Assembly (NCBI GenBank): GCA_016932415.1
Contig: JAFGCX010000007.1
Location: forward strand, 124,001-188,000
Source of the DNA: Candidatus Krumholzibacteriota bacterium
GTDB lineage: Bacteria > Krumholzibacteriota > Krumholzibacteriia > Krumholzibacteriales > Krumholzibacteriaceae
Length of the DNA stretch: 64,000 nt
Direction: 5' to 3'
Positions 7,462 through 36,628 of the stretch are shown here, in pieces; positions within the stretch are counted from its first letter, which is position 1, and every line of letters begins with the position of its first letter. Made by a program: the position numbers and the translations under genes. The notes under the pieces were generated by a model. It saw only the letters and a program-made list of their open reading frames with translations, made no database searches and had not been told where the DNA came from.

Positions 7462-7576
7462 GACATTTGACGATATTCAAACTGTTCACTGGCTTCCGAT
7501 TGTGCTACTTTATCCGCAAGGCACCCGCGCGGGGGCATTTATATTCCAGCGACAGAGATCAAAGCGGAAGAGTCCG

Positions 7577-8665: not shown

Positions 8666-8770
8666 TCGCCCCCGGCCGCGGCCGGGCCCCTTGACGAACC
8701 TGCGGCGCGGCAGTATTTTATTTATATCCGCATAGGCGATCATCCGAATCCTTGACCGGGGTTGCGTCAT

Positions 8771-9808: not shown

Positions 9809-9856
9809 TACGGCGGCCGGCGCGGGACTCTACGATCCACCCGGCGAGGATCAGAT

Positions 9857-17022: not shown

Positions 17023-20000
17023 TCATCTCAACAGGATCATCTTTCGAGTCCTTGTCTCATGTCCGGTTTTCAATCGGTAGAAGTATATGCCTGATGTGAC
17101 TTCCACATCCCTGCTGTTTTTACCATCCCAGCCGATCTCATAGATACCGGCGTTTCGATCTCCCTGATAGAGTGTCTTAATCAATGATCCCCTGACATCA
17201 TAAATACTTATAACGACTTTTCCGGCCTCCGCGATCTCGTATCGAATAACCGTTGATGGATTCAATGGATTGGGGTAATTCTGATGGAGGACCGTTTTAA
17301 CCGGTAATTCCGGGACTTTGTCTTCCAGCATATCTATGAATTCTTCGCTACCCACGAGGAGTACGAATCGCGCATCCTCTTCGTCGGAGACAAAGTCCTT
17401 CTTTCCCAGATAAAAGTCATATCTGTTTTCTGTTCGAAGATCAACGTACTTCCCGAGATCCCTGTCGATAAGATAGAGTACTGCTTCCACCGGAACGTTC
17501 TCAAATATTTCAAACTCCAGCAGTACTTCATCCATTGCGCTTTCAACTGTAAAATTTTTCGCGATATCGAACTTCCACATCTGCCCCCAGAGCCCTATGG
17601 CTGATCGCGACAATCCAGGTGGAGTCACTTCCAACTCAGCGTATCCACCCCTGATATCGGAAGAATAATTTCCGGAATGCCTTTCCCATGTCGGATGCGG
17701 AAAGTAGAGAGAGATCGCGTTACCAGGACTCAACGGAGGCTCGGACCGATCTTGCCGGTCCCAATGGTTCTCAGCGCCAGAGTAAACACCGATGAAGTTG
17801 TTCCTGTCCCGCGCGTCAGAGCACGATGCTACGATATTTATCATCCACCCGTCGATTTCCTCTGCAGTCTCTGTCAGGGTCTTTTCGATAATATTCATGG
17901 CGTCAGCATCCAGCGGCGGAACATTGAGAATCACGGGGATATCGCTGAGATTTCTCACCCAGTAACCTTCAAATGGCGCCAGCGTTTCCACGTCGTAGCT
18001 GTACCCTTCCCCAACCTCCCACCCTATCGGCGGCTCGACGATCGTATCCGACTCTGCCATCGTCAGGGTATCGACCAGGATCGAATCCCATGCCACGGGA
18101 AAATTGAACGGATTGCCTATCATGTTCCAGCCGGGAGCCAAAGCTACCGAATACGGGTTTCCGGTTGGGGTTGAATAGCCGGTGATCGGAGATGTTGTGA
18201 TCCTGCTTGTCTTCCTCGAGACGAGCCAGAACGCTCTTCCCGGTTCGGGTCTGAAATGTCCGGCCACCCCCTCTTGTGATAGTTCCATATATCCAGGCTG
18301 GTCGGGAGTGTATCTGAAAGATCGCCAGTTTATCGGGTCATATGGCCCGAATTCCGCCTGATCAGCCAGAAGTGCCTCGATTGTTCCATAGAAATCTTCG
18401 TCGAACAGAAGAGGGATCGAGATCATCCGGTATTGCGAGCCATGGCAGGATTCCTCCTCCCGCAGATCCTGTACCATTATCTGGATGGCGTATGGATTCC
18501 GATCGGGGGTCAACGGAGGATCTGTCAGCGCCCGCGTGAGAGTATTCACCTCCACCCAATATTCCAGACCTCGAGGACTGGCAAGGGTATCGGCGATCGT
18601 TGCGACCGGCAGCGGGTCCTCATACTCCAGGCTTAAAGTATCGAAAAGTGTCCTCCCTCCGATACGGTAGTGAAGAAGACCACCGGAAAAAACGGCACCA
18701 TCAGGAAGGGACACTTCGATTCGCACAGGCCGGCCTTCAAGAAATCCGGCACCTGAATTCGGTTTCGGATAGGAGAAAATCGCTCCCGGTGGATCGACCG
18801 CCTGGGTGAAAAACGAATCAGGAGCTCCCGGAGGATCTGTCGCGTAAACACCACTGTTTTCGATCTTAATATAGTACTCCAGTCCACCTTCAGTGACTGC
18901 CGTACCCGGAACCACGGCAATAAAATCATCACCGTATTTCGAGAGAGGAATACTGTCATTGAATGTCCCGCCGTTTCCGCCCGGCCTGTGATGGAGATAC
19001 CCCTGCTCGATCCGGACATCCGGAAAGGGGCTTACAACTACCGTTACCGCCTCGCCAAGAGGCACCCGCGGTGTCGGAGTCAGTAGATTGCTCTCGACCC
19101 GCAGGGCTCTGATATCCGTTTCGACCTGTATCGCAGTAACGGGAGTCAAAGGATCGTTACTCTCTATCATGAGGGGGCCGGAAATTTCGGTATCAATCCT
19201 CGGCTCAAGAAAGACCTCAATACCGGCGCGGCCTCCCGGATCGATATTGACGGGGATCTCGAGGCCCAGTCGTATCTCGGTTGACGGAAAACTGACGCCG
19301 GTGATTGAAAGCAGTTCATTCCCAGTATTCAATACTGTCATATCAAACAAGGTCGTATCACCGACTGTGATCGTAGGAAAAGAAATAAGATGCTCCGGCA
19401 CGGTAAGTTCCGGGCGGGACGGTTCAATCGGCCCCACGTTTTTCATGTACGAAGGGATTTGCTGTATCAAAGAGACACGTTTCGGATCAGAGATCGTCTT
19501 AAGCCGGAGAATAATATCCCTGTCGTCAAAAGGCAGGGAGGATACATCCCAATCGAACTGATGTTCAATTCCCTCAGGCGACGCTGTCAACGGCCCGATC
19601 TTCCCTGAAGACCCGACGACATCCACGGAATACCATTCAGGCATACCTTCGAACTGATACTCCGGCACTATCCAAACCTGATCAGATTCGACATCAATCG
19701 CCTTCAATGTCACAAGATATCTGTTCCTGGCGATTTCCCGGACATCGACAGAGCGCAGGAAAGCACTGTTATTCGGGAGGTGATTGGTCGGGGACAAAGG
19801 AGAACCCTTGAAAGCAGGCGCCTGCTTCCCGAGAAAAAGTTCTCCGCTGGGAGAATTTCCAAATATTACATCAATATCTCCATCCAGATCTACATCTCCC
19901 GGAAATACACAGGTGGTCATATCCGCTCGTTCCCATGTCCAGTCAGGTACTGACGAGAAAGTGCCTCCATTGTTCAAATATATGGTATTGTTTTCACCGT

Positions 20001-22122
20001 CTGGATAATAACCGCTGTTGCCGCAGATCAGATCAAGATCGCCGTCACGGTCGAGATCTTCCAGCGCGATAGCGAACGTCTTGTCCGCGATTCCTGATAC
20101 CCATTCAGGGGTAGACGCTAAAACCCCTCCTTCATTCAAATAAAGGGTGTTCGCCTGTCCCGACCTTTCAAACCCGCAATTACCGCAGACCAGATCGAGG
20201 TCGCCGTCGGAGTCTATGTCTCCCAGGGCTATGCTGACAGTGGTATATGCCGCGCTGGAGTACCATACTGGATCATCAGTGAAGATGCCTCCATCATTCA
20301 AATACATCGTGTTCTTCTCACCCAGAAAATCCGTACCGAAATTTCCACATACAAGATCGGGGTATCCGTCTTTGTTGATGTCTCCGAGTGCGATACTGCC
20401 CGTGGAACTTCTGCCTGCCGAAAACCATGCCGGTGTAAAGGAAGGAATGACGCCCCCGTCGTTCAAAAAGAGTGCGTTGCCTGTGTCAGTATCTTCAGCG
20501 TCAGTTCCCGATATCAGATCAAGATCCCCATCAAGATCGACATCTTCCAGCGCGATACTGATCGTTTCCAGACTTAATCCATCGTTCCAGTCCGGACTCT
20601 TCGAAAATGTACCACCTTGATTAAGATAAAGTGTGTTATTCTGTCTGACATTGCCGCAGACCAGATCCAGATCACCGTCACCGTCTACATCCCCCAGATC
20701 TATATTTGCCGTGCTGTTATCCTGGCTCGAATACCAGCCTGCCAAAGTATCAAATACGCATTCGTTATTTAAAAATAACAGGTTTACATAAAGCCCCCCC
20801 GCGACAAGATCGGGATACCCGTTACCATCGATATCTCCCATATCGATATCATAGATACCGGGAAAGTAGGGCCATATAAAATCAGGCGCCGCGGCGAAAG
20901 GATGACTGTTATTGGAATAAATCGCGTTGTTGCCGGCATTACCGCAGATCATGTCCAGGCTTCCATCGGAATCGATGTCCCCAAGAGCTATCGCTATAGT
21001 CCAGATATTGGATTCAGCCGTCCAATCCGGCACCAGTGGAAAAGTGCCTTCAGTATTGAGATAAACAACGTTACCTTCAGATCCTTCCTGGATGTTCGCG
21101 CATACGAGATCGAGATCGCCGTCCCCATCTATATCACCCAGCGCGATATCGAAGGAGACCTTATCTGTCTCGCATGACCAGGAAGGTGTTGTTGAAAAGA
21201 GACCTCCTTCGTTCAGGTAAAGCGATATATTTTTACCGGAAAATTCATGTATTATGTTCGCGCAGACAAGATCGAGATAACCATCTCCATTGATGTCACC
21301 GAGCTCCACGGAAGTCGTGTTGAATGTCGAATCGGATAACCAGGCGGGACTGGTCGAAAACATGCCCCCTTCATTTAGATAAAGCGTATTGGGAGTTTTA
21401 TCGTTCCCACATACGAGATCAAGGTAACCATCACCATTTACGTCACCGATAGCGATATCATTGGTAACGAACATCGAATCAGATTGCCAGACCGGAGCAG
21501 GTGCAACAATACCATCTTCATTCATATAGAGCGTGTTCCGCTGGGGATTTTTGTAACCTCCATTTCCGCATACCAGATCGAGATACCCATCATTGTCGAT
21601 ATCCCCAAGGGTCACACAGGATGTCAAATTCAATGAATCCGAATACCATGAGGGGGTTGTGGTAAACATGCCGCTTGAATTCAAATAGATAGTGTTTCTT
21701 TGACCATAATTCCCGCATACGAGATCAAGAGCACCATCGCCGTCTATATCTCCCAATGCCACTGCTAATGTCATATTCGCGGGGGCTGAAGACCAGGCAA
21801 ATGATGACGAGAGAATGCCACCGTCATTTAAATACAGCGTATTGAATTGACCCGAAGATTCCCCTGAATTCCCGCATACCAGATCAAGATAACCGTCACC
21901 GTTTACGTCTCCCGTGGCAACAGACCAGGTCCAGTCGGATTGCGCGGAAAACCATGCGGGCTCCCCCGAAAATAGCGGTGTTTGCGCATTACCTGATCGT
22001 GCGGGGATTATCGCCGCAATAAAACAGGCACAAAACATTGTACAAGCATATCGCTTCCATCTACTGTAATTGTAATGCGCCATTGGAAGAAACTCATCCG
22101 GACGACGCGTGCGAATAAACAT
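17023..22122 (-). CDS. Very large secreted FG-GAP/VCBS repeat protein with T9SS-type tail
   Basis: 1699 residues. Signal peptide at about 22-47 (ending SGNAQ). Residues about 50-790 contain 14 repeats of roughly 52-57 residues, each built around a calcium-binding-like core such as DVNGDGYLDLVCGN followed by TLYLNEGG; these FG-GAP/VCBS repeats would fold as two seven-bladed propellers. Next comes an ASH/choice-of-anchor D-like beta sandwich (NTGNELLSITGV ... IESNDPLTPV, about 910-985), then Ig-like modules, and a final sorting domain (NYPNPLNPSTVIRYEI ... SGIYFYRL ... TRKMILLR). Likely a surface adhesin. ATG at 22122 has AGGGGGC upstream; an internal ATG at 22083 lacks one. Gene stands alone. 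Confidence 0.85.
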   Translation of the reverse strand: MFIRTRRPDEFLPMAHYNYSRWKRYACTMFCACFIAAIIPARSGNAQTPLFSGEPAWFSAQSDWTWSVATGDVNGDGYLDLVCGNSGESSGQFNTLYLNDGGILSSSFAWSSAPANMTLAVALGDIDGDGALDLVCGNYGQRNTIYLNSSGMFTTTPSWYSDSLNLTSCVTLGDIDNDGYLDLVCGNGGYKNPQRNTLYMNEDGIVAPAPVWQSDSMFVTNDIAIGDVNGDGYLDLVCGNDKTPNTLYLNEGGMFSTSPAWLSDSTFNTTSVELGDINGDGYLDLVCANIIHEFSGKNISLYLNEGGLFSTTPSWSCETDKVSFDIALGDIDGDGDLDLVCANIQEGSEGNVVYLNTEGTFPLVPDWTAESNIWTIAIALGDIDSDGSLDMICGNAGNNAIYSNNSHPFAAAPDFIWPYFPGIYDIDMGDIDGNGYPDLVAGGLYVNLLFLNNECVFDTLAGWYSSQDNSTANIDLGDVDGDGDLDLVCGNVRQNNTLYLNQGGTFSKSPDWNDGLSLETISIALEDVDLDGDLDLISGTDAEDTDTGNALFLNDGGVIPSFTPAWFSAGRSSTGSIALGDINKDGYPDLVCGNFGTDFLGEKNTMYLNDGGIFTDDPVWYSSAAYTTVSIALGDIDSDGDLDLVCGNCGFERSGQANTLYLNEGGVLASTPEWVSGIADKTFAIALEDLDRDGDLDLICGNSGYYPDGENNTIYLNNGGTFSSVPDWTWERADMTTCVFPGDVDLDGDIDVIFGNSPSGELFLGKQAPAFKGSPLSPTNHLPNNSAFLRSVDVREIARNRYLVTLKAIDVESDQVWIVPEYQFEGMPEWYSVDVVGSSGKIGPLTASPEGIEHQFDWDVSSLPFDDRDIILRLKTISDPKRVSLIQQIPSYMKNVGPIEPSRPELTVPEHLISFPTITVGDTTLFDMTVLNTGNELLSITGVSFPSTEIRLGLEIPVNIDPGGRAGIEVFLEPRIDTEISGPLMIESNDPLTPVTAIQVETDIRALRVESNLLTPTPRVPLGEAVTVVVSPFPDVRIEQGYLHHRPGGNGGTFNDSIPLSKYGDDFIAVVPGTAVTEGGLEYYIKIENSGVYATDPPGAPDSFFTQAVDPPGAIFSYPKPNSGAGFLEGRPVRIEVSLPDGAVFSGGLLHYRIGGRTLFDTLSLEYEDPLPVATIADTLASPRGLEYWVEVNTLTRALTDPPLTPDRNPYAIQIMVQDLREEESCHGSQYRMISIPLLFDEDFYGTIEALLADQAEFGPYDPINWRSFRYTPDQPGYMELSQEGVAGHFRPEPGRAFWLVSRKTSRITTSPITGYSTPTGNPYSVALAPGWNMIGNPFNFPVAWDSILVDTLTMAESDTIVEPPIGWEVGEGYSYDVETLAPFEGYWVRNLSDIPVILNVPPLDADAMNIIEKTLTETAEEIDGWMINIVASCSDARDRNNFIGVYSGAENHWDRQDRSEPPLSPGNAISLYFPHPTWERHSGNYSSDIRGGYAELEVTPPGLSRSAIGLWGQMWKFDIAKNFTVESAMDEVLLEFEIFENVPVEAVLYLIDRDLGKYVDLRTENRYDFYLGKKDFVSDEEDARFVLLVGSEEFIDMLEDKVPELPVKTVLHQNYPNPLNPSTVIRYEIAEAGKVVISIYDVRGSLIKTLYQGDRNAGIYEIGWDGKNSRDVEVTSGIYFYRLKTGHETRTRKMILLR

Positions 22123-25726: not shown

Positions 25727-26302
25727 ATGCGTTACCTGACCGCAACTTTATTGTTGCTTCTCATTGTGATCAATCCGTTGCTGTCCGCCTCTGGTGAGGC
25801 GCGCGCCAGTGAACCGGGAGAATTCTCGGAGTGGGCGATGTCCCAGAGCGCCGCCATCGACCGGGACTGGCAAAAAGCTATGGGCCGAAGTTCCGCTTCG
25901 GTCACTGCTGGCCAGTATGTTCGGACAGGGATCTCATCATCAAGCTATAGCATCTCTGGAAAAAGGATAAGATATCAGAAGAGAAACGGTTGGAACGGAC
26001 AGATAAACGCGTCCGGGTACATCCACCCGTCGATCTCAGGCACCTTTCTTCCCCAGACGAGCAGACTTAGAAACGGGGCTTCGCGGGGAACAGGGATGAT
26101 CACCTCACCCTCGAAAGTACTTCGTGGCGGTAACCGCCGGATGCCGTTCAATTCGATGAATTTCAGCAGAAATACCGGCATCAGTCGGGGAACTGAAAGG
26201 ATGCACCCCGACTTCGGGTCAAGGATCAGTTCAAGTTCAAGGAAGAGCAGGAGTTACTCCACCGGTTCCCTCGGATCGTCAAGATCGAGGAAAAGGCGGT
26301 AA
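25727..26302 (+). CDS. Basic Ser/Arg/Gly-rich secreted protein of unknown family
   Basis: 191 residues. A strong signal peptide (RYLTATLLLLLIVINPLL, cleavage near SASGEARA) and GGGAAG about 5 bases before the ATG support the call. The mature chain is low in acidic residues and becomes increasingly Ser/Arg/Gly-rich; the last 30 residues (SSSSRKSRSYSTGSLGSS then RSRKRR) are strongly basic. A repeated S-I-S-G element occurs (SISGKRI, SISGTFL). No known domain recognised. Extreme basic charge suggests binding to acidic surface polymers or nucleic acid, which is only an inference. It has its own sigma-70 promoter and lies just before the PEP-CTERM island. Confidence 0.65.
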   Translation: MRYLTATLLLLLIVINPLLSASGEARASEPGEFSEWAMSQSAAIDRDWQKAMGRSSASVTAGQYVRTGISSSSYSISGKRIRYQKRNGWNGQINASGYIHPSISGTFLPQTSRLRNGASRGTGMITSPSKVLRGGNRRMPFNSMNFSRNTGISRGTERMHPDFGSRISSSSRKSRSYSTGSLGSSRSRKRR

Positions 26303-26459
26303 GATACGACCTCCGCTCACCTGGGGGAATATGCCCCGGCCGGAGGACAGAGCAACGACGATATGTCGAGATTCTTTACAGGTTTAAAGCTGGGGAATAT
26401 GACCCAACATTTGGAGTGCGCAATTTGTTATTTTAATGGATGTTACAAAAAGAGATCGA

Positions 26460-26474
26460 TGGCACGCACCTTGC
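26460..26474 (+). promoter_or_regulatory. Sigma-54 promoter of the first PEP-CTERM gene
   Basis: TGGCAC at 26460-26465, a 5-base spacer and TTGC at 26471-26474: exact match to the -24/-12 consensus with GG-N10-GC spacing. It lies 67 bases before the ATG at 26542. No sigma-70 signal is seen nearby. The expected activator is PrsR, encoded at 35198. Confidence 0.85.
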
Positions 26475-26541
26475 GGTCACTAATATGAAAAGTCAGAGTA
26501 TTTTCGTTGTTTATAATGGAATTCGACACAAAGGAGCGGAT

Positions 26542-27234
26542 ATGAAAAGGATCAATATTTTTCTGGCGGCCCTGCTGGCTTCGGCTCTGGTCGCCGGACC
26601 AGCCAGCGCGGTTCCAAAACTACAGACCTACATAGTCGGTTCAGATTTTCAATACAACTACGCTCCGATTGAAAGCGATACCTGGGTCACGACATCGGGC
26701 AGCTTCGATCTGAAGGTGGTCGGATACTGGCATCCGATTCCGGAGGACCCGCCTCTGGATATGGTCCTCGCTCCACCGACGTACGATTATCTCGATGTCT
26801 GCCTGATGATCAGCGCTCCGACAGATCAGTCCGGAACAGTATGGATCAATGGAATCGAGATCAACTCTTTCTGCAATAATTATAACAGACAGGAAACAGG
26901 CCTCGACTGGAATACGAAGGGGTTGTTCCGCAAAGACATGAACCTCGCCTTTTACAAGGTAGGCAGGATAGACAACAAACAGGCTAACGCGTGGAACTAC
27001 GACCATGGCCTGATCCATGAACGGGGATGGGGCGATGAAGCTCTCCTCGATGTCGTCGTCAGAGGTTTTTCCTGGACTCACTTTGATGCCATAGGCATAG
27101 ATTCGCACGGCAAAAGGTACAGGAATCCCCATTCGCACGACTCAAGCTATTTCGCTACCCCTGAACCGGGAACGCTAAGCCTGCTCGGGCTCGGTCTTCT
27201 TGGACTGGTTCCTATTCTGAGAAGAAACAGGTAG
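26542..27234 (+). CDS. PEP-CTERM 'choice-of-anchor N' protein, copy 1
   Basis: 230 residues: signal peptide (KRINIFLAALLASALVAG, ending SASA/AVP), a roughly 175-residue beta-rich domain starting VPKLQTYIVGSDF, and a C-terminal PEP-CTERM signal: PEPGTLSLLGLGLLGLVPIL then RRNR. This tail is recognised and cut by exosortase, leading to secretion or glycan-linked anchoring. The mature domain matches the choice-of-anchor N type by its opening and by WVTTSGSFDLKVVGYW, GTVWINGIEI and GWGDEALLDVVVRGF. ATG 26542 follows AAAGGAGCGGAT; the open frame extends further upstream but would run through the promoter. First of three paralogues. Confidence 0.88.
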   Translation: MKRINIFLAALLASALVAGPASAVPKLQTYIVGSDFQYNYAPIESDTWVTTSGSFDLKVVGYWHPIPEDPPLDMVLAPPTYDYLDVCLMISAPTDQSGTVWINGIEINSFCNNYNRQETGLDWNTKGLFRKDMNLAFYKVGRIDNKQANAWNYDHGLIHERGWGDEALLDVVVRGFSWTHFDAIGIDSHGKRYRNPHSHDSSYFATPEPGTLSLLGLGLLGLVPILRRNR

Positions 27235-27260
27235 CAACCCATAACGATATTGATCTTTTA

Positions 27261-27294
27261 CGGCTCCTCTGCTTCGATCGAGGTAGAGGAGCCG
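27261..27294 (+). terminator. Strong hairpin between PEP-CTERM copies 1 and 2
   Basis: CGGCTCCTCT (27261-27270) pairs perfectly with AGAGGAGCCG (27285-27294); the loop contains a further TCGATCGA palindrome. It begins 26 bases after the stop. Only a short pyrimidine-rich stretch follows rather than a T-run, so it is a terminator or attenuator of moderate certainty. Confidence 0.5.
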
Positions 27295-27451
27295 GATCCC
27301 CTTCCTGACCCGCGCTGCGACTCCTTAAAAAATCGATCCGAAAGGGCTCAAAACGTCGGCATTCCTTACGCTTTTTAGATTGTTTGGCAAACGCCTGGAT
27401 AGAGCAAATGTAACATCTTGAATTTATTAGTGATACACACGCTTAAAAAAG

Positions 27452-27466
27452 TGGCATGCAGATTGC
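27452..27466 (+). promoter_or_regulatory. Sigma-54 promoter of PEP-CTERM copies 2 and 3
   Basis: TGGCAT at 27452-27457, 5-base spacer, TTGC at 27463-27466, again GG-N10-GC. It lies 70 bases before the ATG at 27537, nearly the same distance as in copy 1. Copy 3 has no promoter of its own in the 37-base gap and is presumably co-transcribed. Confidence 0.82.
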
Positions 27467-27536
27467 GATAATATGGGTGTTTGCAGCTATATTATGTAAA
27501 TTATAATCGATTCCGACACCAGAAAAGGGAAAAAAG

Positions 27537-28250
27537 ATGAAAAGGTTCCATGTTTTTACAGCCGCGATGCTCGCCGCAGTCCTGTTCGCGGGCTCCGCTG
27601 TCGCCGTCCCAAGGATCCAGACCTATATCACCGATTCACGGTATGAGAATTTCCACAGTATTCTCGACCAGAGATCCTGGATCACCAACTCCCAGGAATT
27701 CGATCTGCATGTAGTAGGATACTGGGGAGAGGTCAATAGGGATGCAATCAACAGCGGAATAGATTACTGTTATCCCACGCGTGATTATATGGAATGTTAC
27801 GTGGCGATAAGCGTCCCTATCTGCCAGTCTGGAACGATATGGATCAACGGAGAGGAAATCAGCACTTTCTACAATTTTGGCGATGCTGTTCCTCCGGGCG
27901 CCGATCCCGCCTGGTACCTTCGCTGGGCTCCTCCCGCTACCTTCGGAAAATTCAACTTCTATAAGGCTGGAGTGATCGATAACAGCCAGCCAAACGCGTG
28001 GCACTACGACCATGGGTTGATCCATTCACCAGGGTGGGGCGACGAGAAGATTCTCGATGTGGTAGTAAAGGGTTTTTCCTGGACGCATTTTGACGCGATC
28101 GGGATCGATGCGAGGGGAGTCACCTATACCAACCCATGGGATTACGACGCGACATATTTCTACTCGACTCCCGAACCGGGCACTCTCAGCCTTCTCGGCC
28201 TCGGACTTCTCGGTATTGCTCCTCTGCTGAGAAGGAAGAATAAATCATAG
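27537..28250 (+). CDS. PEP-CTERM 'choice-of-anchor N' protein, copy 2
   Basis: 237 residues. Signal peptide KRFHVFTAAMLAAVLFAG, mature domain opening VPRIQTYITDSRYENF, and the same core motifs as its neighbours (FDLHVVGYW, GTIWINGEEI, GWGDEKILDVVVKGFSWTHF). The tail is PEPGTLSLLGLGLLGIAPLL followed by RRKNKS. It shares with copy 1 the NAW-x-YDHGLIH and WTHFDAIGID blocks, so those two are related over their whole length. The last 68 coding bases before the final codons are identical to copy 3. AAAAGGG lies upstream of the ATG. Substrate of the exosortase encoded 0.9 kb downstream. Confidence 0.88.
   Translation: MKRFHVFTAAMLAAVLFAGSAVAVPRIQTYITDSRYENFHSILDQRSWITNSQEFDLHVVGYWGEVNRDAINSGIDYCYPTRDYMECYVAISVPICQSGTIWINGEEISTFYNFGDAVPPGADPAWYLRWAPPATFGKFNFYKAGVIDNSQPNAWHYDHGLIHSPGWGDEKILDVVVKGFSWTHFDAIGIDARGVTYTNPWDYDATYFYSTPEPGTLSLLGLGLLGIAPLLRRKNKS
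28167..28234 (+). repeat. 68-bp perfect direct repeat, first copy (PEP-CTERM tail)
   Basis: Bases 28167-28234 of copy 2 are identical to 28918-28985 of copy 3, while sequence on both sides differs. The repeat covers the PEP motif, hydrophobic segment and first Arg codon of the sorting tail. See the matching entry at 28918. Confidence 0.9.
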
Positions 28251-28287
28251 GACAACAGCTTACTTTTTGAACGGAAGGTTTTTTGAA

Positions 28288-29001
28288 ATGGGCAAATGTT
28301 CGATTCTGGCGACTCTGCTCCTCTCTCTCTCTCTGATCGGTTCATCAGCGATGGCTGTCCCGAAACTGCAGACATATATTACCGGTTCGGATTATTATTA
28401 CAATTACTCCGGTGATGAGGATTCGTGGGTAACGACATCCGGCAATTTTGACCTGAAGGTAGTCGGATACTGGGATCCGATGGTACCAACAACTACATCA
28501 GGTCTGGATTCCGAGATGCTGGCATTCAGACCAGATTACGATTACATGGAAGTCTATGTCGTCGTAAATGTCCCTACAGGTCAGAGTGGCACTGTCTGGA
28601 TTAACGGCGTAGAGATAAACACATTCTATAACTACGGCGACGCCGGACTCGCTTCCGCTGCTCCATCCTGGTATAACAAGACCATGTTGCCCAGCATCCA
28701 TAATTTCAACTTCTACCGTGTTGGAGAAATGGACAACCTCCGTGCGAACGCATGGCATTATGATGAAGGCATTATACACGAGCAGGGGTGGGGAGACGAA
28801 GCTCTTCTCGATGTAGTGGTGAGGGGATTCGAATTTGCGAACTTTGACGCTATCGGAATCGACTCCTACGGCAAGAGGTATGTAAGTCCCAACTCCCATG
28901 ACGCAAGTTATTTTGCCACTCCCGAACCGGGCACTCTCAGCCTTCTCGGCCTCGGACTTCTCGGTATTGCTCCTCTGCTGAGAAGAAAAAAGAACTCCTG
29001 A
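28288..29001 (+). CDS. PEP-CTERM 'choice-of-anchor N' protein, copy 3
   Basis: 237 residues from the ATG at 28288 (GGAAGG 9 bases upstream; the in-frame TTG at 28267 is less likely). Signal peptide GKCSILATLLLSLSLIGS ending AMA; mature domain VPKLQTYITGSDYYYNYS, closest to copy 1 at this point (WVTTSGNFDLKVVGYW, GTVWINGVEINTFYNYG, GWGDEALLDVVVRGFEF). Tail identical to copy 2 (PEPGTLSLLGLGLLGIAPLL) then RRKKNS. It starts 37 bases after copy 2 without an intervening terminator or promoter, so the two share a transcript. Confidence 0.88.
   Translation: MGKCSILATLLLSLSLIGSSAMAVPKLQTYITGSDYYYNYSGDEDSWVTTSGNFDLKVVGYWDPMVPTTTSGLDSEMLAFRPDYDYMEVYVVVNVPTGQSGTVWINGVEINTFYNYGDAGLASAAPSWYNKTMLPSIHNFNFYRVGEMDNLRANAWHYDEGIIHEQGWGDEALLDVVVRGFEFANFDAIGIDSYGKRYVSPNSHDASYFATPEPGTLSLLGLGLLGIAPLLRRKKNS
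28918..28985 (+). repeat. 68-bp perfect direct repeat, second copy (PEP-CTERM tail)
   Basis: Identical to 28167-28234. Copy 1 (26542-27234) encodes nearly the same tail with several synonymous differences, so protein-level selection alone does not require base identity; gene conversion or recent duplication of the tail is indicated. Confidence 0.9.
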
Positions 29002-29030
29002 TCCTGACTCTCGTCAGGGTGGAATAGAAA

Positions 29031-29061
29031 AGGGCGCGGCAAAAGACCGCGTCCTTTTTTT
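29031..29061 (+). terminator. Rho-independent terminator after PEP-CTERM copy 3
   Basis: GGGCGCGG (29032-29039) pairs with CCGCGTCC (29047-29054) around a 7-base loop and is followed by seven T. A smaller hairpin, CCTGAC/GTCAGG at 29003-29018, directly follows the stop codon. The terminator ends just before the next sigma-54 promoter. Confidence 0.85.
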
Positions 29062-29062
29062 A

Positions 29063-29077
29063 TGGTACCTCTTTTGC
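29063..29077 (+). promoter_or_regulatory. Sigma-54 promoter of the exosortase-prsK-prsR operon
   Basis: TGGTAC at 29063-29068, 5-base spacer, TTGC at 29074-29077; one mismatch to TGGCAC, but the invariant GG and GC with N10 spacing are present. It follows a terminator and precedes the exosortase start by 82 bases, so it is placed as the operon promoter. This would let PrsR activate its own gene. Confidence 0.7.
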
Positions 29078-29159
29078 TGCTCATTCTTCTTGCCAATACA
29101 GGCGGATAACTTATAAGATTCCACTACAATGCCGCATCGACCGTATCAGAGGAGGCTTC

Positions 29160-30014
29160 TTGTCCAGTATCGCGGATCATGATAGAACAGGATCAAAAGC
29201 GCCGGGGCTGATCCTGATCGCGTCATCTGCCGTTCTGATATCTATCCTCTACTTCCCTGTGCTCTTGAGCCTGGTGAGACAATGGATAAATGATCCTAAC
29301 TACCAGCATGGGCTCATCATACCGTTCGTCTCGGCATTTATACTCTGGAAGCGTCGAGAAAAGCTGAAGAACGCTCCCGATGGCAGGCATAGATTCGCGG
29401 GATTACTGGTCATTCTCTTCGCTTCTCTCCTGCTTATCGCCGGCACAGCCGCTTCGGAACTTTTTACCACTCGCTTCTCATTTCCAATCCTGATCTTCGG
29501 TACAATACTCTTTATATTTGGCGACAGGATAGCGAGAGTCACAGCCTTTCCCGTCCTTTTTCTGATCCTTGCCATACCCCTGCCGTATATAATCTATTAC
29601 AAGATCACATTCCCGATGCAGATCTTCAGCGCGAGGCTGAGCACATCGATCCTGAAGATGGCAGGCGTCAGCATAATCAGAAAAGGAAATATACTGCAAT
29701 TGCCTGAATATACTCTCGAAGTTGTCGCTGCCTGCAGCGGGCTTCGCTCGTTGATGACGATGGTCACGATCGCGATGATATTCACTGTTTTCTCAGGTTT
29801 CTCAAGGACCAAGAATTTGATTCTCGTCGCCGCTTCGATTCCGGTAGCGATAGCGGCCAACGCGATACGCCTTACCATTACGGCGCTCGGAGCCTATACG
29901 ATAGGACCCGAGTTCGCGGACGGACCGATACATGAGATATCAGGCCTGATAGTATTCGTGGCGGGAATGCTTCTGCTTCTTCTCTGCGCGAGGATATTGA
30001 AATGGGTAAAATAA
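29160..30014 (+). CDS. xrt: Exosortase (PEP-CTERM sorting enzyme)
   Basis: 284 residues, about eight membrane spans, inner membrane. Exosortase is a cysteine transpeptidase-like enzyme that recognises PEP-CTERM tails. The catalytic triad is visible: Cys192 in VVAACSGLRS, Arg237 in ANAIRLT and His258 in GPIHEISG. Conserved lipid-facing segment NDPNYQHGLIIPFVSAFILW is also present near the N-terminus. Starts with TTG at 29160 just after GGAGG (4-base gap). Overlaps epsI by 13 bases. First gene of a six-gene operon that also encodes the regulators, and directly downstream of three likely substrates. Subtype (XrtA versus others) is not decided. Confidence 0.93.
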   Translation: MSSIADHDRTGSKAPGLILIASSAVLISILYFPVLLSLVRQWINDPNYQHGLIIPFVSAFILWKRREKLKNAPDGRHRFAGLLVILFASLLLIAGTAASELFTTRFSFPILIFGTILFIFGDRIARVTAFPVLFLILAIPLPYIIYYKITFPMQIFSARLSTSILKMAGVSIIRKGNILQLPEYTLEVVAACSGLRSLMTMVTIAMIFTVFSGFSRTKNLILVAASIPVAIAANAIRLTITALGAYTIGPEFADGPIHEISGLIVFVAGMLLLLLCARILKWVK

Positions 30015-30664
30015 ACCGTCTTATCGTCGTCATTCTGATACTCTCGCTACTTATGGTCTATACGATGAAATTGCGCGAAAAAAAGGCCGGTGAGATCTCT
30101 CTTCCAGATTTCTCACTCATTCCGTCCGAATCGGGGCATTATAGTTCTGACGACTATTATATAGGGATCGAATCGCTGAAAGTGCTCGGCGCCGACACGA
30201 CGCTTGTCAGGTCGTATACTTCGCCGGGAGGAATGGAGATAGAGTTTTTCCTCGGGTATTTTTCAAGCCAGCAGGAGAATTCCCAGATTCACTCGCCAAA
30301 ACACTGTTACCCCGGTTCAGGGTGGGATATTATCAGCGAGGAGAAACTGAGGATCGATTTTGAAAACGGCCCCGGATCGGTCAAGCGGTTGATGATCTCG
30401 AATGGCAGGGAAGAAAGGCTGGTCATATACTGGTTCAGCATGAACGGAGATGCCATCCCTGACGAGTTCTCGCTGAAATACCACCAGATGAAAAACACCC
30501 TCCTGTCGCGACCCCAGGCTGCCGCGTTTATCCGATTCTCAACCGTCGTCAGGCCTGGAGGAGACAAAAATATCGAGGAAGAGATGTTTAGATTCATAAG
30601 TGGAATAAATCCCGATATAATGGCAGCGCTTAAACCGGGGCGACCTTTGAAGAATCGAGGGTAG
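30002..30664 (+). CDS. epsI: EpsI domain protein, exosortase-associated
   Basis: 220 residues: one N-terminal membrane anchor (NRLIVVILILSLLMVYTM), then a periplasmic domain with HSPKHCYPGSGW, the hallmark of the EpsI family that is often fused to or encoded beside exosortases. In other genomes EpsI is needed for polysaccharide and exosortase-dependent export; its exact role is unknown. The start overlaps the exosortase coding end by 13 bases, and the stop is immediately followed by the next ATG, so the three genes are coupled. Confidence 0.88.
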   Translation: MGKINRLIVVILILSLLMVYTMKLREKKAGEISLPDFSLIPSESGHYSSDDYYIGIESLKVLGADTTLVRSYTSPGGMEIEFFLGYFSSQQENSQIHSPKHCYPGSGWDIISEEKLRIDFENGPGSVKRLMISNGREERLVIYWFSMNGDAIPDEFSLKYHQMKNTLLSRPQAAAFIRFSTVVRPGGDKNIEEEMFRFISGINPDIMAALKPGRPLKNRG

Positions 30665-31546
30665 ATGACGAAGACATTCATCAGTGAAAAAAACAGCACG
30701 GGAAAAAGGTTCGATATTTCCGCAAGCCTGAAGGAAACATTCAGTTCCTTCCATTCCGCTATATCGATCCTGCGTGATTTCAGGATCGCGATTCCATCGA
30801 TCATCTTCCTGACTATTCACCTGGGCATATTGATATTATACCTTTCAAGCCTTGAGCCTCCCCTTACATCGTTCTGGGCCCTTTTCATAAGGGGGCTTTC
30901 CGGTTCCGATATAGGGCATTTCCCCGGCCACATCATCCTCATGCAACCGATCCTTGACCGGCTGGATATCCTGATAGACATATTCATCAATATAATATTC
31001 CAGGGAGTGACGGTGATCCTTGTCTTCAGTTTCGCTTTTGACAGGTCTCTCTCCCTCCGGGATGGATTCCGTGGAACGCTGGGTAAGTATCTCCAGCTGC
31101 TCCTGGTCTCTGTTGTCGCCTCCACGCTCATATACGCGGTATTCCTTCTCGTTGGAAATATCAGGGCGGGGGCTGGGGTCTTGGAGGGATACATCATATA
31201 TTCGGCAGGCATCGTGATCGCGCTCGCGATACAGGGATTGTTCTTATATACGACTCCCGCGATCCTTCTCTACGACGCCGATTTTTTCAGATCGGTCAGA
31301 AAAAGCTTCTCAATTGCCGCTGATTCGGCGGCGACAACTTTTTTCGTGGTGCTTTTTCCATTCATATTGACTCTGCCTACAACGTTCATAGGGATAAAAG
31401 CCGGACTGATCGCCACGAGGCTTTCTCCCGATTTCATAATATATAATTACGTCGTCTCATCGATCATCGAGATGATATCCACCTATCTGATCATTGCAGG
31501 TGGGACCATCATCTTCATGGGAAGGATGAAAAACAGCCTTGGCTGA
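30665..31546 (+). CDS. Polytopic membrane protein of unknown function in the exosortase operon
   Basis: 293 residues with about six hydrophobic segments (near 42-64, 95-130, 140-165, 172-200, 220-245, 258-285). The second half (EGYIIYSAGIVIALAIQGLF, SVRKSFSIAADSAATTFFVV) resembles the loosely conserved membrane domain of GlpQ-linked or DUF975/YciC-type proteins, but no firm family is recognised. ATG follows the epsI stop directly. Its position between epsI and prsK makes an auxiliary role in sorting, or in transport to the sorting site, plausible. Confidence 0.7.
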   Translation: MTKTFISEKNSTGKRFDISASLKETFSSFHSAISILRDFRIAIPSIIFLTIHLGILILYLSSLEPPLTSFWALFIRGLSGSDIGHFPGHIILMQPILDRLDILIDIFINIIFQGVTVILVFSFAFDRSLSLRDGFRGTLGKYLQLLLVSVVASTLIYAVFLLVGNIRAGAGVLEGYIIYSAGIVIALAIQGLFLYTTPAILLYDADFFRSVRKSFSIAADSAATTFFVVLFPFILTLPTTFIGIKAGLIATRLSPDFIIYNYVVSSIIEMISTYLIIAGGTIIFMGRMKNSLG

Positions 31547-31588
31547 GGACCGGATCACCTTTTCGAGGTCGCCGACTCTGGAGGAAAA

Positions 31589-33079
31589 ATGAACGGAAAG
31601 ATCAATATCTGCATCGTCATCCTGATGGTATTCCTTGCCATTTCGGCCTGTTCAAGCGGAGAAAAATCGACCCTCTACAGGGCGGAAAAAGAACTCTTCG
31701 AGGCGAGAAAGCTCAACCGCGAACTTAAGCCTGGATCGACGAGCAACGAATTCATCGAAAAGGCTGTCGGCAGCTACCGGTCGATCGTCGATCGGTATTC
31801 ATCAGGCGCCGGAAGCGTCGAAGGGATGGAAATGATCGTCGTTTCAGCTCAGATCGAACTCGCCGAACTTGAATTCCGCGCCGGTGACCTGGAAAACTCG
31901 ATCGCTGATTTTCAGAAAGCGTACCTGCTCGCCGACAACATCCCCGAGGCAAAAGCGAACGCCCTATGGTCGGCCGCTTTCATATCAGAGCAGAACGGAG
32001 ATGCCTCTGAAGCGATTAGGCTCTTTGAAAAATTCTCCGAAGAATATCTGGGCCGGAACACGATAGAAAAGACATCTAGGATGAACACCCGGTACCTTCT
32101 TGTTCCGGTGAGGCTTTCAAATCTTTACAACTTCCTGGGGCGTCAGGAAGAGGGATCGGCCGCTCTGGGCAAAGGTGAACAGTCATATAGGGCTATACTC
32201 TCGAAGGCTAAGGACCCCGTCCTGGTGAGAGAAACGCAGTACAACCTTGTGACAGTCCTGCTTGAGCAGAAAAAATGGGGCGACGCTCTCGCGCTGGTGA
32301 GGGAGATGGAAAACCTCTACCGTAACGAAAAAGACAGGCCGGCTCTTATGTTTCTTGAAGCCAAGATCGAGATGGAAGGGTTTGACCGGCAGGAAAAGGC
32401 TTCAGCGATCTTTACATCGATCGTCGATGAGTTCCCGGACGCTCAGGAAACAGTCCCCGCCCTTCTGATGATCGCCGGCATACATCAGGGATCGGGCAGA
32501 TATAAAGAAGCGGAAGAGGTCTACAACAGGATCATCAGGGACCACAAATCCTCAGGCAGCGGAGTAGTCGAAGCCACATGGCAGCTCGCCAATATCTCCG
32601 AGATCCAGGGCAGGTGGATCGACGCGTCCCTGCATTTCAAATCTATCTACACAAGCTTTCCGACGACTCTGCAGGGAATGGAATCGCCGCTCAGGATCGC
32701 GGCGCACTTCGAAGACAACGGCGAAAAGGACGCGGCCGATAACGCTTACGAAAGGGCCCTGGAACATTACGAGACCCTCCTCTCAAGAGAAAATCCCCTG
32801 GGTATAAGAATTATGGCCGAAGAATACGCGGTAAGGATACTGTCGTTGCAGAAAAAGTGGAAGGAAGCGGCGGAGCGCCTCACAACTCTCCCTGACAAAT
32901 ATCCCGAATACGGAAGATTCGCGCAGAATTACCTCACAGCCGCTTCGATTTATGAAAAGGAGCTCGGGGACAGGGAAAAAGCGATCGAGACTCTCCAGGC
33001 ATGCGTCGAACGATATGAAGGTTCCGATCTGGCAGTCGAGGCCCAAAGACATCTGGAAAGAATAAGAGAAGAACAATGA
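31589..33079 (+). CDS. TPR-repeat lipoprotein in the exosortase operon
   Basis: 496 residues. The signal peptide ends in the lipobox AISAC, with Cys21 as the lipidated residue. The mature protein is almost wholly helical with tetratricopeptide-type pairs, e.g. ENSIADFQKAYLLADNIPEA, GDASEAIRLFEKFSEEYLGR, GRYKEAEEVYNRIIRDHKSS and GDREKAIETLQACVERYEGS. GGAGG precedes the ATG closely. It is likely a periplasmic or outer-membrane-attached scaffold; TPR proteins of the PrsT/PEP-CTERM type accompany XrtA loci elsewhere, and this may be the counterpart. ATGA overlap with prsK. Confidence 0.78.
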   Translation: MNGKINICIVILMVFLAISACSSGEKSTLYRAEKELFEARKLNRELKPGSTSNEFIEKAVGSYRSIVDRYSSGAGSVEGMEMIVVSAQIELAELEFRAGDLENSIADFQKAYLLADNIPEAKANALWSAAFISEQNGDASEAIRLFEKFSEEYLGRNTIEKTSRMNTRYLLVPVRLSNLYNFLGRQEEGSAALGKGEQSYRAILSKAKDPVLVRETQYNLVTVLLEQKKWGDALALVREMENLYRNEKDRPALMFLEAKIEMEGFDRQEKASAIFTSIVDEFPDAQETVPALLMIAGIHQGSGRYKEAEEVYNRIIRDHKSSGSGVVEATWQLANISEIQGRWIDASLHFKSIYTSFPTTLQGMESPLRIAAHFEDNGEKDAADNAYERALEHYETLLSRENPLGIRIMAEEYAVRILSLQKKWKEAAERLTTLPDKYPEYGRFAQNYLTAASIYEKELGDREKAIETLQACVERYEGSDLAVEAQRHLERIREEQ

Positions 33080-35181
33080 ACCTATTTGCTCCAATCCTCT
33101 CCTATACCGCGTCGGGGCTTCTTGTTCTCCTGGCATTGACAGCCATCGCCCGGCGACGTTTCAATTACCAGAAACGCTTCTTTATTCCTCTGGTCTTTGT
33201 CTTCGCCTTCATCATGATTCTGGTCTCCCTGATCGTTCGATCCGGCTCGCCGGATCAGACTCAGACCCTTTTGAGAATACTCATTGCCACGACGATCTCT
33301 TCACCGGCTTTTGGGATCCCGTTCTTTCGTTTCTTCGCGCGCGAGAGTGGCTCCGTCTCACCATGGAAGAGCTTGCCGGCAATGATGATCCTTTTTATGA
33401 TCCTGTTTGCAGGCAGCTTTCTCATTCCGATCCATCACCTTGTCCGGGCAATTTCCATGGAGGAAAAAGGGTTTCTCTATCAACTGTCATTCACCTGGGC
33501 AGGGAAGGGATTGGGTGTCTTTATCCTTCTGGTCAATGTCTGCTATTTATATTTCATGGAAAACACGTACAGGGCAGCTAACATACAGGGAAAAGTCACC
33601 CTTAAATACCCGATGCTAGGAATGTTGACAGCCTCACTGCTTAATTTTGTAGTCATGAGCAGGCTTCTCTCCCTTTCATCCGTCGATCGCAGATTCCTGA
33701 TCGTTGAGACATGCGGTATTATAATTGTCGCCGTTACTTTTCTCTACGCAAATATCCGTTATAACTTCTTCGAGATAGGGATTCCGGCGAAAAAGGAAAA
33801 TAATTCAACGATAACTGTCATGATCGCGGGGCTGTATTTTATTTCGATCGGACTTATCTCCTGGATATCGGCTCTGGCCGGACTGCCGTACGACCGGTTT
33901 CACCTCTATGTAATAGGTATATTTATAGCCTTCCTGCTTCTTTCGATAGGCATTTCGGGCAGAGTGAGAAGAAGACTCCGTATATTCCTCAACGACAATT
34001 TTTATCTCGAGAACTACAACTACCGCAGGGAATGGCGCCATTTCTCCAGGCTGATGGCCACCAGCCTGAGAATAGAGGATTTTCTCTCCAACACGATAGG
34101 ATCGCTCTGCGAGACTGTGATGGTCCAGAGAGGGATAATATGGGTCGATATCAGGAACGGGAAAGAGGCGTCGTATGGAGCGACTGGAGAAGACTGGACT
34201 CCTGAAACTCCTGGCTGGCTGCTTTCACTATGCAGAGATGGCAGGTTCGAGGGGCTGAACAGGAGATTCAACAGGAAAATCCCTTCCCTTGCCGAGAGGA
34301 GCGGCGAAGAAGAATCAGATCATATACCCTGCTGGATCCGGTTCATCGCTCCGCTGGGACATGGTGAAGAAACCAAGGGTTTCATCGCACTCGGAGTCAA
34401 AGATACCGGCGCGCCGTTCGGGCAGGAGGATGAGACCTTTCTCGAGACGATCGCCGATCAGGCTTTAATAACGATCGATAACCTTCTGATGGAAGAAAGA
34501 TTTCTCGAATCAAAGCAGATCGAATCGTTCAACCGCTTTGCTTCATTTGTAATACACGACCTTAAAAATACCGTCGGGATGCTTTCACTGACAGCGGAAA
34601 ACGCCAGGGAAAACATGGATGACAAGGAATTCCAGAAAGATACGATTCAAACGATAAAAAGATCGGTCGAAAAGATGCAGGATCTGATCAACTCCCTCAA
34701 TGCCCATAAATATCCCGGGAATATAAGCAGGACTAGAACGGAGATCGTTTCTCTCGTCAGGGACAAGGCCGCCCATCTAATGCCCGCGGCGCAAAACCGG
34801 AAGATATCGCTGGATTTCTCACCGCCGGGCGAATTGTACGCGCATGTCGATCGATCGGCAATCGAAAGGATCATCGAGAACCTGATCCTCAATTCTGTCG
34901 ACGCGACGGGAGAAAACGGGAAGATAACGATCACTATCTCGGTTGATGACCGGGAAGGGATAACTCTTACCGTCGCCGATACCGGAAAAGGATTCGATGC
35001 CGAATATCTGAAGAACGATCTTTTCAAACCGTTCAGCAGCACAAAGAAAAACGGCCTCGGGATAGGACTCGCCCTGTGCAAATCAATGATCGAGGCTCAT
35101 GGAGGATCGATATCGATCAATAATCTTGGTGGAAACGGCGCGGTCGTATCGATTAAAATACCCGGTATCGATTCAAATTGA
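33076..35181 (+). CDS. prsK: PEP-CTERM system sensor histidine kinase PrsK
   Basis: 701 residues. Eight or so N-terminal membrane spans (about 5-295), a cytoplasmic GAF-like domain (about 315-470), a dimerisation/phosphoacceptor helix with His494 in FVIHDLKNTVG, and an HATPase_c domain with NLILNSVDATGENG (N box), VADTGKGFD (G1) and GLGIGLALCKSMIEAHGG (G2). This architecture and the FVIHDLKN motif are those of PrsK, the kinase paired with PrsR at exosortase loci. The sensed signal is unknown. Starts within the stop of the lipoprotein gene (ATGA); 16 bases separate it from prsR. Confidence 0.9.
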   Translation: MNLFAPILSYTASGLLVLLALTAIARRRFNYQKRFFIPLVFVFAFIMILVSLIVRSGSPDQTQTLLRILIATTISSPAFGIPFFRFFARESGSVSPWKSLPAMMILFMILFAGSFLIPIHHLVRAISMEEKGFLYQLSFTWAGKGLGVFILLVNVCYLYFMENTYRAANIQGKVTLKYPMLGMLTASLLNFVVMSRLLSLSSVDRRFLIVETCGIIIVAVTFLYANIRYNFFEIGIPAKKENNSTITVMIAGLYFISIGLISWISALAGLPYDRFHLYVIGIFIAFLLLSIGISGRVRRRLRIFLNDNFYLENYNYRREWRHFSRLMATSLRIEDFLSNTIGSLCETVMVQRGIIWVDIRNGKEASYGATGEDWTPETPGWLLSLCRDGRFEGLNRRFNRKIPSLAERSGEEESDHIPCWIRFIAPLGHGEETKGFIALGVKDTGAPFGQEDETFLETIADQALITIDNLLMEERFLESKQIESFNRFASFVIHDLKNTVGMLSLTAENARENMDDKEFQKDTIQTIKRSVEKMQDLINSLNAHKYPGNISRTRTEIVSLVRDKAAHLMPAAQNRKISLDFSPPGELYAHVDRSAIERIIENLILNSVDATGENGKITITISVDDREGITLTVADTGKGFDAEYLKNDLFKPFSSTKKNGLGIGLALCKSMIEAHGGSISINNLGGNGAVVSIKIPGIDSN

Positions 35182-35197
35182 CGGAAAGGTGCTTTAA

Positions 35198-36628
35198 TTG
35201 GCGTCAACAAAACTGTTAATAGTCGACGACGAAGAAGCCATTCTGAAACAACTTGAATGGGCTTTTAAAAAAGATTACAGGATCATTAAGGCATCAACCA
35301 TCGAAGATGCCCTCACTGCTGTAAAAAACGAATCACCCCAGTTGATGATCCTCGACCTCTCCCTGACAAGCGAGTCCGAGGGATTTGAAGGATTCGAAAT
35401 ACTGGAGAAGGCCCTTCAGATAGAGCCCGGGATCAAAATCATCGTGATTACCGGACATGATTACAAGGAGAATGCTTTCAGGGCTCTTGAATCCGGAGCG
35501 ATCGACTTCTATTCCAAACCGGTCGATATCGACGAATTGAGAGTGATACTCGGAAGAGCTTCATACATCCATTCCCTCGAGTCGATGATCAAAGACCTCA
35601 AATCAGCCCCCGGAAAAGGGCATGAGTTCGAAAGCATCATATCGATGTCCGGGACAATGCTCGATATTTTCGAGACCATACGAAGGATCGCGCCGACAGA
35701 TGTCGCCGTCCTCATTACCGGTGAGAGCGGGACGGGGAAGGAACTGATCGCCAGGGCGATTCATTCGAGAAGTACGCGAAAGAACAAGCCATTCATTCCG
35801 ATAAACTGCGGAGCAATACCGGAGAACCTTCTTGAAAGCGAGCTCTTCGGCCATGAAAAAGGCAGTTTTACAGGTGCTGTCTCCTCAAAACCGGGAAAAT
35901 TCGAGATCGCCGAGGGAGGGACGATCTTTCTCGATGAGATAGGCGAACTCCCCCTTTCCCTGCAGGTCAAAATACTGAGATTCCTCCAGGATCACGTCAT
36001 CGAAAGAGTGGGGGGACAGAAACCCCTCCAGCTCGATCTGAGGGTGATAGCCGCGACCAACAGGGACCTTACAACGATGATCGAAGAGAGGACGTTCAGA
36101 GAGGACCTTTACTACAGGATAAACACCATAAAGATCGCTCTCCCCCCCCTTCGCGACCGTGGCCAGGATATCCTTCTGCTGGCGATGTATTTTCTCCATC
36201 ACTACAATTCCGAATTCTCAAAGAACGTCAAGACCTTCAGTCAGTCAGCCCGTAATATCCTTTACACTCATTCATGGCCCGGAAATGTCCGTGAACTGGA
36301 AAACAGGGTGAAGAGGGCAGTGATCATGACATCCGGAAGGATCATTCAGCCCGAAGACATGGACCTGGCCCCTGACCAGGCCGGCGCTGCCGCGGAATCT
36401 CGCCAGGGCGGCTCCGGCGCGTCTATTACACCACTGTCGATCCCATCCCTTAAAGAAGCAAGAGACGACCTTGAACAGAGGATGATAACCGACGCGCTCC
36501 TCAGGTTCTCGGGAAACGTCTCGGCGGCGGCGCAGGAACTCGGCATCAGCAGGCCTACTCTTCATGATCTTATGAAAAAACATGATGTCGCTCCGGAAGA
36601 CTTCAGAACTTCGAAACGAAAAAAATAG
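35198..36628 (+). CDS. prsR: PEP-CTERM-box response regulator PrsR (sigma-54 activator)
   Basis: 476 residues. Receiver domain (1-125) with Asp53 in MILDLSL and Lys near 106; AAA+ central domain with Walker A GESGTGKELIARAIH, the sigma-54-contacting loop GSFTGA (normal GAFTGA with Ala to Ser), Walker B GGTIFLDEIGEL; and a C-terminal Fis-type helix-turn-helix NVSAAAQELGISRPTLHDLM. It activates transcription by sigma-54 polymerase. TTG start at 35198, preceded by AAAGGTG. Three sigma-54 promoters in the same island (26460, 27452, 29063) are the obvious targets, including that of its own operon. Confidence 0.93.
   Translation: MASTKLLIVDDEEAILKQLEWAFKKDYRIIKASTIEDALTAVKNESPQLMILDLSLTSESEGFEGFEILEKALQIEPGIKIIVITGHDYKENAFRALESGAIDFYSKPVDIDELRVILGRASYIHSLESMIKDLKSAPGKGHEFESIISMSGTMLDIFETIRRIAPTDVAVLITGESGTGKELIARAIHSRSTRKNKPFIPINCGAIPENLLESELFGHEKGSFTGAVSSKPGKFEIAEGGTIFLDEIGELPLSLQVKILRFLQDHVIERVGGQKPLQLDLRVIAATNRDLTTMIEERTFREDLYYRINTIKIALPPLRDRGQDILLLAMYFLHHYNSEFSKNVKTFSQSARNILYTHSWPGNVRELENRVKRAVIMTSGRIIQPEDMDLAPDQAGAAAESRQGGSGASITPLSIPSLKEARDDLEQRMITDALLRFSGNVSAAAQELGISRPTLHDLMKKHDVAPEDFRTSKRKK

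Follow-up and report, generated by a model that had tools for sequence, protein, structure and literature searches.

A predicted dedicated PEP-CTERM sorting cassette with its own PrsK/PrsR regulator in a Krumholzibacteriota bacterium

Among the closest described counterparts of the locus reported here is the proteobacterial XrtA/PEP-CTERM system. Haft (2006) reported for it a 17-nt motif with TTTACA at its end, spaced 63 ± 11 nt from the sigma-54 site that follows; the motif occurs together with PrsK, PrsR and PrsT and was found only in Proteobacteria (PMC1569441). Systems of this kind usually serve many substrates, on average more than 10 per genome, and their exosortase gene is embedded among many EPS genes, as in L155. 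Our locus has in common with them the PEP-CTERM tail, an EpsH exosortase, EpsI, a probable PrsK, PrsR and a sigma-54 promoter preceded by a 17-nt box ending in TTTACA. It differs in that its substrates form one family in one cassette, the exosortase is not embedded in an EPS locus, the TPR protein is not PrsT, and the host is not a proteobacterium; moreover, the box stands at a fixed distance of about 80 bp before the promoter and is accompanied by an inverted copy in the leader. Rhombosortase/GlyGly-CTERM systems (Haft and Varghese 2011; PMC3237569) likewise place a sorting enzyme beside one or a few targets, but enzyme and signal are unrelated to those found here, where an EpsH exosortase comes with its own regulator and the arrangement is conserved family-wide. 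A further parallel is PepA/PrsT floc formation in Aquincola, where pepA transcription needs RpoN (PMC9850573). Both systems have an RpoN-type PEP-CTERM gene with a -24/-12 promoter containing TGGCAC and a TPR neighbor, whereas the Aquincola substrate has a different ectodomain and the system a true PrsT. We know of no dedicated cassette in the Aquincola system.

The locus lies in a draft genome of Candidatus Krumholzibacteriota bacterium (3.11 Mb, 38 contigs, 95.5% complete), and all genome-wide counts given below come from searches of these draft contigs. Within the window, i.e., the whole 64,000-nucleotide stretch of contig JAFGCX010000007.1 that was analyzed, a cassette of about 10 kb holds substrates, enzyme and regulator on the forward strand, in the order three choice-of-anchor N (choice-N) genes, exosortase, EpsI, membrane protein, TPR lipoprotein, PrsK and PrsR. 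A sequence-only reading had placed three tandem paralogues beside an exosortase and epsI at 26542-30664; profile matches above cutoffs bear out both the coordinates and the arrangement, and the cassette runs on past that span through 30665-36628, up to PrsK/PrsR. We consider it highly probable that this is a dedicated PEP-CTERM sorting system under PrsK/PrsR control, with tails matched to one enzyme.

The three substrates occupy 26542-29001 in tandem (gene 1, 26542-27234; gene 2, 27537-28250; gene 3, 28288-29001) and match the choice_anch_N model NF038141 at 63.9, 50.0 and 64.7 bits, all above its cutoff of 40 bits. The tails of all three proteins score above the PF07589 and TIGR02595 cutoffs (24.9 bits with PF07589 for gene 1), and N-terminal signal peptides were read by eye. 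The paralogues are 53 to 61% identical overall and, as the earlier reading had noted, retain common core blocks, namely W-x-T-x-S (W-V-T-x-S in that reading), WING-x-EI and GWGDE. A structure model of moderate confidence (pLDDT 76.6) shows a secreted β-rich domain preceded by a signal helix and followed by a C-terminal helix. Searches of the PDB with this model gave no significant match; the weak ones (E > 1e-3), all nonsignificant, include β-sandwich adhesin and biofilm-matrix domains. Published work ties PEP-CTERM proteins to the retention of exopolysaccharide on the surface of the cell (PMC9850573, PMC12188702). The choice-N proteins are most likely regulated surface or matrix proteins. Just upstream, at 25727-26302, lies a gene for a secreted Arg/Ser-rich basic protein of no family, which is kept upstream of choice-N genes in ten other loci (27 to 58% identity) and is possibly an extra part of the system.

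An intrinsic terminator at 29030-29061 (forward strand; RNA fold of -21 kcal/mol, z = -5.2, followed by a run of seven U) marks the boundary between the substrates and the exosortase operon. The exosortase gene (29160-30014) encodes an eight-transmembrane protein of the EpsH family (PF09721, 240 bits, E = 2.6e-71; TIGR02602, 194 bits against a cutoff of 105.6), whose residues C192, R237 and H258 are invariant in an alignment of the clade, and it overlaps by 13 bases the gene for EpsI (DUF3485; 30002-30664; TIGR02914, 106 bits, E = 1.6e-30, cutoff 42.8; PF11984, E = 1.2e-40). It is the single PF09721 exosortase of the host genome. Its scores with the exosortase A model (TIGR03109, 195.9 bits) and the exosortase W model (NF038142, 207.9 bits) lie under the respective cutoffs of 208 and 425 and, as judged from sequence, it stands near XrtA, XrtW and XrtD in no assigned subfamily. 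The scanned neighbors of the cassette include no canonical XrtA locus with EPS genes, the XrtA-associated kinase, the ATPase and the deacetylase; the only glycosyltransferase-type genes of these surroundings lie at 7364-11508, 15 to 19 kb upstream. They belong to a glycan-type run at 7364-14733, with genes for glycosyltransferases, a WecG/TagA-type transferase, a polysaccharide deacetylase-like protein and radical SAM proteins, possibly a glycan locus. The window also encodes a gingipain-type peptidase C25 (713-3127) and a 1,699-aa FG-GAP-like protein (17023-22122) with a C terminus that by eye resembles a T9SS-type sorting domain, which would be a different C-terminal sorting route. A second, distant exosortase-family protein is encoded on another contig of the genome (L009:245-2312, contig C11); it has 203 aa and is XrtH-like though under cutoff. 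Immediately upstream of it is the gene of a secreted, Cys-rich protein whose tail, VPVPLFSTPVVTILVLAMILAAAVIMKR, is not of the PEP type, and downstream that of a membrane protein of 164 aa. The two loci have in common that an exosortase-family gene adjoins a tailed protein, but L009 has a different tail and a small type of exosortase; the adjacency of this exosortase to a differently tailed protein suggests a separate dedicated pair.

The next gene (30665-31546), between those for EpsI and the TPR protein, encodes a conserved multihelix membrane protein of no Pfam family; CysZ is among the weak matches to its structure model (pLDDT 83; TM 0.57/0.71, E = 0.34), which hints at a CysZ-like fold. 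The lipoprotein that follows (31589-33079) gives matches to TPR models only and is PrsT-like in position, not in family: TIGR02917 was absent among its matches up to an E value of 1, while a true PrsT used as a positive control scored 576 bits, and we rejected that assignment. Together with the basic protein, these two proteins are candidates for the missing parts of the system. The cassette ends with a histidine kinase that is probably PrsK (33076-35181), which matches TIGR02916 over its full length at 295.2 bits, slightly under the cutoff of 300, and with the sigma-54-dependent response regulator PrsR (35198-36628; TIGR02915, 561 bits, cutoff 502.6), which possesses receiver, AAA+ and Fis HTH domains by Pfam and a GSFTGA loop by eye.

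Genes 1 and 2 are each preceded by a predicted, near-consensus -24/-12 promoter of the strict sigma-54 pattern, TGGCACGCACCTTGCG at 26460-26475 and TGGCATGCAGATTGCG at 27452-27467 (both forward strand). These are the only two strict sites in the 3.1-Mb genome, with none in the reversed control; for a looser pattern with one mismatch, two matches in the window alone are not unusual. Upstream of the gene 1 promoter, 96 bp before the -24 element, lies a PrsR-type box, TGTCGAGATTCTTTACA (26364-26380, forward strand), that with 23.8 bits ranks first among the window's 127,960 positions and recurs at this place before the choice-N genes of relatives. The corresponding box of gene 2, CGTCGGCATTCCTTACG (27354-27370, forward strand), is degenerate (12.5 bits) and lies 98 bp before the -24 element. 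The 17-bp consensus is TGTCGR-N6-TTACA, and in both genes a spacer of 79 to 81 nt separates box from sigma-54 site. Each leader carries an inverted box on the reverse strand, at 26512-26528 in gene 1 (13.7 bits, 52 bp after the -24 element) and at 27502-27518 in gene 2 (13.2 bits, 50 bp after it); the former has only two other equally good sites in the window and the same offset in relatives. We found neither a sigma-54 site nor a box upstream of gene 3, which, as it follows gene 2 after 37 bases, is probably cotranscribed from the gene 2 promoter. Between box and promoter of gene 1, a dyad of the type TGGGG...CCCC, TGGGGAATATGACCCA, was read from the sequence at 26391-26406, with a second copy at 26322-26337; most relatives have a similar dyad shortly after the box, and these dyads are possibly the site of a second regulator.

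The same geometry recurs before most choice-N genes of the clade. Twenty-five choice-N promoters had a sigma-54 site that could be read and sufficient sequence ahead of it; in 24 of them the box lies 96 to 100 bp before the -24 element (the exception, in G025, is at 69), and in 20 the best inverted match falls at +49 to +52; shuffled regions gave box scores above 12 bits in 1% of cases. A composite pattern of box and sigma-54 site had 18 matches in 118 genomes, each about 150 to 200 bp upstream of a choice-N gene, with none elsewhere and none in the reversed control. Since this pattern was built from many of these same sites, their recovery is expected, and the absence of matches elsewhere is the informative part. 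Plasmid PrsR systems served as a working positive control for the clade box matrix: in a 36-kb stretch of a Vibrio alfacsensis plasmid, its highest-scoring site precedes a PEP-CTERM gene and is followed after 73 nt by a sigma-54 site, and in a 43-kb stretch of a Nitratidesulfovibrio plasmid the highest-scoring site precedes a THxN PEP-CTERM gene; strong sites were missing at some PEP-CTERM genes of the same plasmids. A gapped version of the box had no match in five other exosortase genomes (two Desulfobacterota, two Acidobacteria and one distant Krumholzibacteriota), which may or may not carry PrsR. The promoters agree with motifs 1 and 2 of Haft (a box, a spacer of 32 to 92 nt and a sigma-54 site upstream of PEP-CTERM genes), the box being likened by its published description. 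As the matrix also finds sites before proteobacterial PEP-CTERM genes, the box is very probably the predicted site of the same regulator, PrsR. No inverted leader box was seen at the Vibrio and Nitratidesulfovibrio plasmid sites, and in this small comparison the leader copy looks specific to the present clade.

Three models agree on the number of tails in the host genome. With E values up to 10, PF07589 retrieved exactly three matches and TIGR02595 three above cutoff plus one by chance; a tail model specific to the clade retrieved the same three at E values of 1e-14 to 1e-16 and nothing else up to 1. The fourth TIGR02595 match (G000:C8:75346, 13.2 bits) belongs to a multispanning membrane protein that looks glycosyltransferase-like by eye and was set aside. 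The proposal of the sequence-only reading that the three proteins are the prime dedicated substrates is thus supported by exactly three tails and by a pairing kept in relatives; the dozens of other genes with the same tail that would speak against it are absent from the 95.5%-complete draft. The neighborhood comparison that this reading had suggested, in Krumholzibacteriota and "Latescibacterota" drafts, found the full cassette order from choice-N to PrsR, followed as far as the contigs reach, in all 19 close named loci (L119 to L137). In exosortase genomes of the same family and order, the choice-N tails number one to three and are the only strong ones; nearly every exosortase-bearing genome of the family has such tails, normally beside the exosortase. 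Additional choice-N genes lie on contigs without exosortase in G009 and G015, so adjacency is the rule and not absolute. G012, G016 and G018 are without exosortase, and none was found in G006, where the choice-N genes are on a short contig. More distant exosortases (L138 to L152) have at most EpsI adjacent, the rest of the cassette being absent there.

The tails have a history separate from that of the ectodomains. A 68-nt tail segment of gene 2 (28167-28234) is identical to 28918-28985 of gene 3; these two genes have 94% nucleotide identity in the tail and 55% in the ectodomain, and the same pair in a sister genome has 97% and 52%. A recent tandem duplication could account for the like tails of two adjacent, paralogous genes without any gene conversion. 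We regard this as highly improbable, as it is already contradicted by the comparison of orthologs: genes 2 and 3 have one ortholog each in the sister genome (63 to 70% identity, well-supported nodes; gene 1 has no resolved position in the tree), their ectodomains are closer to the sister ortholog (67 to 70% amino acid identity) than to the paralogue (52%), their synonymous sites are saturated (pS 0.86), and tails with 94 to 97% nucleotide identity within each genome have only about 80% between orthologs. By their sister orthologs and saturated synonymous sites, the paralogues are not recent. Like tails on saturated ectodomains in two genomes of the genus are most readily explained by a gene conversion confined to the tails of these two genes; neither the unlinked copies of G009 and G015 nor the G006 pair shows such homogenization. 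The suggestion that the paralogues are diversifying is not supported, since low ectodomain pN (0.18 to 0.34) beside saturated pS (0.72 to 0.86) points to a dominance of purifying selection.

The exclusivity of the tails invites another objection, namely that the exosortase has other, undetected substrates whose C-terminal signal diverges, the choice-N proteins being merely the recognizable ones. Divergent signals can escape models of short tails, 4.5% of the genome could be absent from the draft, and a different tail (PVPLFSTPVV...) does exist in it. Against this, that second tail adjoins its own exosortase-family protein, the clade model matches nothing beyond the three, and the same exclusivity is seen in about 20 relatives; we consider additional substrates improbable and retain the reading of a dedicated system. 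The inverted leader box, for its part, might act in the RNA, or as a -10 region of sigma-70 type, and not as a PrsR site. Its position about 27 to 43 nt past the expected start falls within the predicted transcript, and the leaders of genes 1 and 2 contain TATAAT strings. Nevertheless, its TGTCGR...TTA core is common with the upstream box, whose copy is untranscribed, several relatives have TGTAAA in place of TATAAT, and the single-strand fold of the promoter region is unremarkable (z = 0.29, DNA parameters), which makes this alternative somewhat unlikely in our view.

We propose that PrsK senses a signal and phosphorylates PrsR. To go by the anatomy of the sigma-54 promoters of gene 1 and of genes 2/3, each with a box some 97 bp ahead of it, PrsR would bind these boxes and thereby activate the choice-N genes. 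By analogy with their families, the products would be exported by Sec and anchored in the inner membrane through their PEP-CTERM helix until the neighboring exosortase and EpsI cut the tail and pass the protein on, and the mature β-rich domain would reach the cell surface or matrix. More speculatively, the inverted leader box could let PrsR limit or tune its own target promoter. The tail would be kept matched to the single enzyme, and in this genus conversion between the second and third genes would homogenize its DNA. We tentatively go one step further, with slightly less than even confidence, and suggest a new sigma-54 control unit, in which opposed PrsR sites at a fixed spacing of about 148 bp flank the promoter and have activating and limiting or looping roles. 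It would work within a closed circuit where a single kinase and regulator go with a single enzyme and a single substrate family, whose tail would be kept uniform by tail-limited conversion.

The type of system is known; what is new is that it is closed around a single substrate family and carries its own regulator in a host that is not a proteobacterium. Literature searches found no paper linking Krumholzibacteria with exosortase and none linking PEP-CTERM with gene conversion. In this poorly known bacterial group, a sorting enzyme, its only detectable clients and a two-component regulator are thus found in one cassette, which very probably extends the PrsR box beyond Proteobacteria and offers what reads as a clear example of tail-limited concerted evolution. 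Because PEP-CTERM clients are usually many and scattered, it is hard to show the effect of an exosortase on one substrate; with one client family, one enzyme and a regulator in about 10 kb, the pathway becomes testable as a unit.
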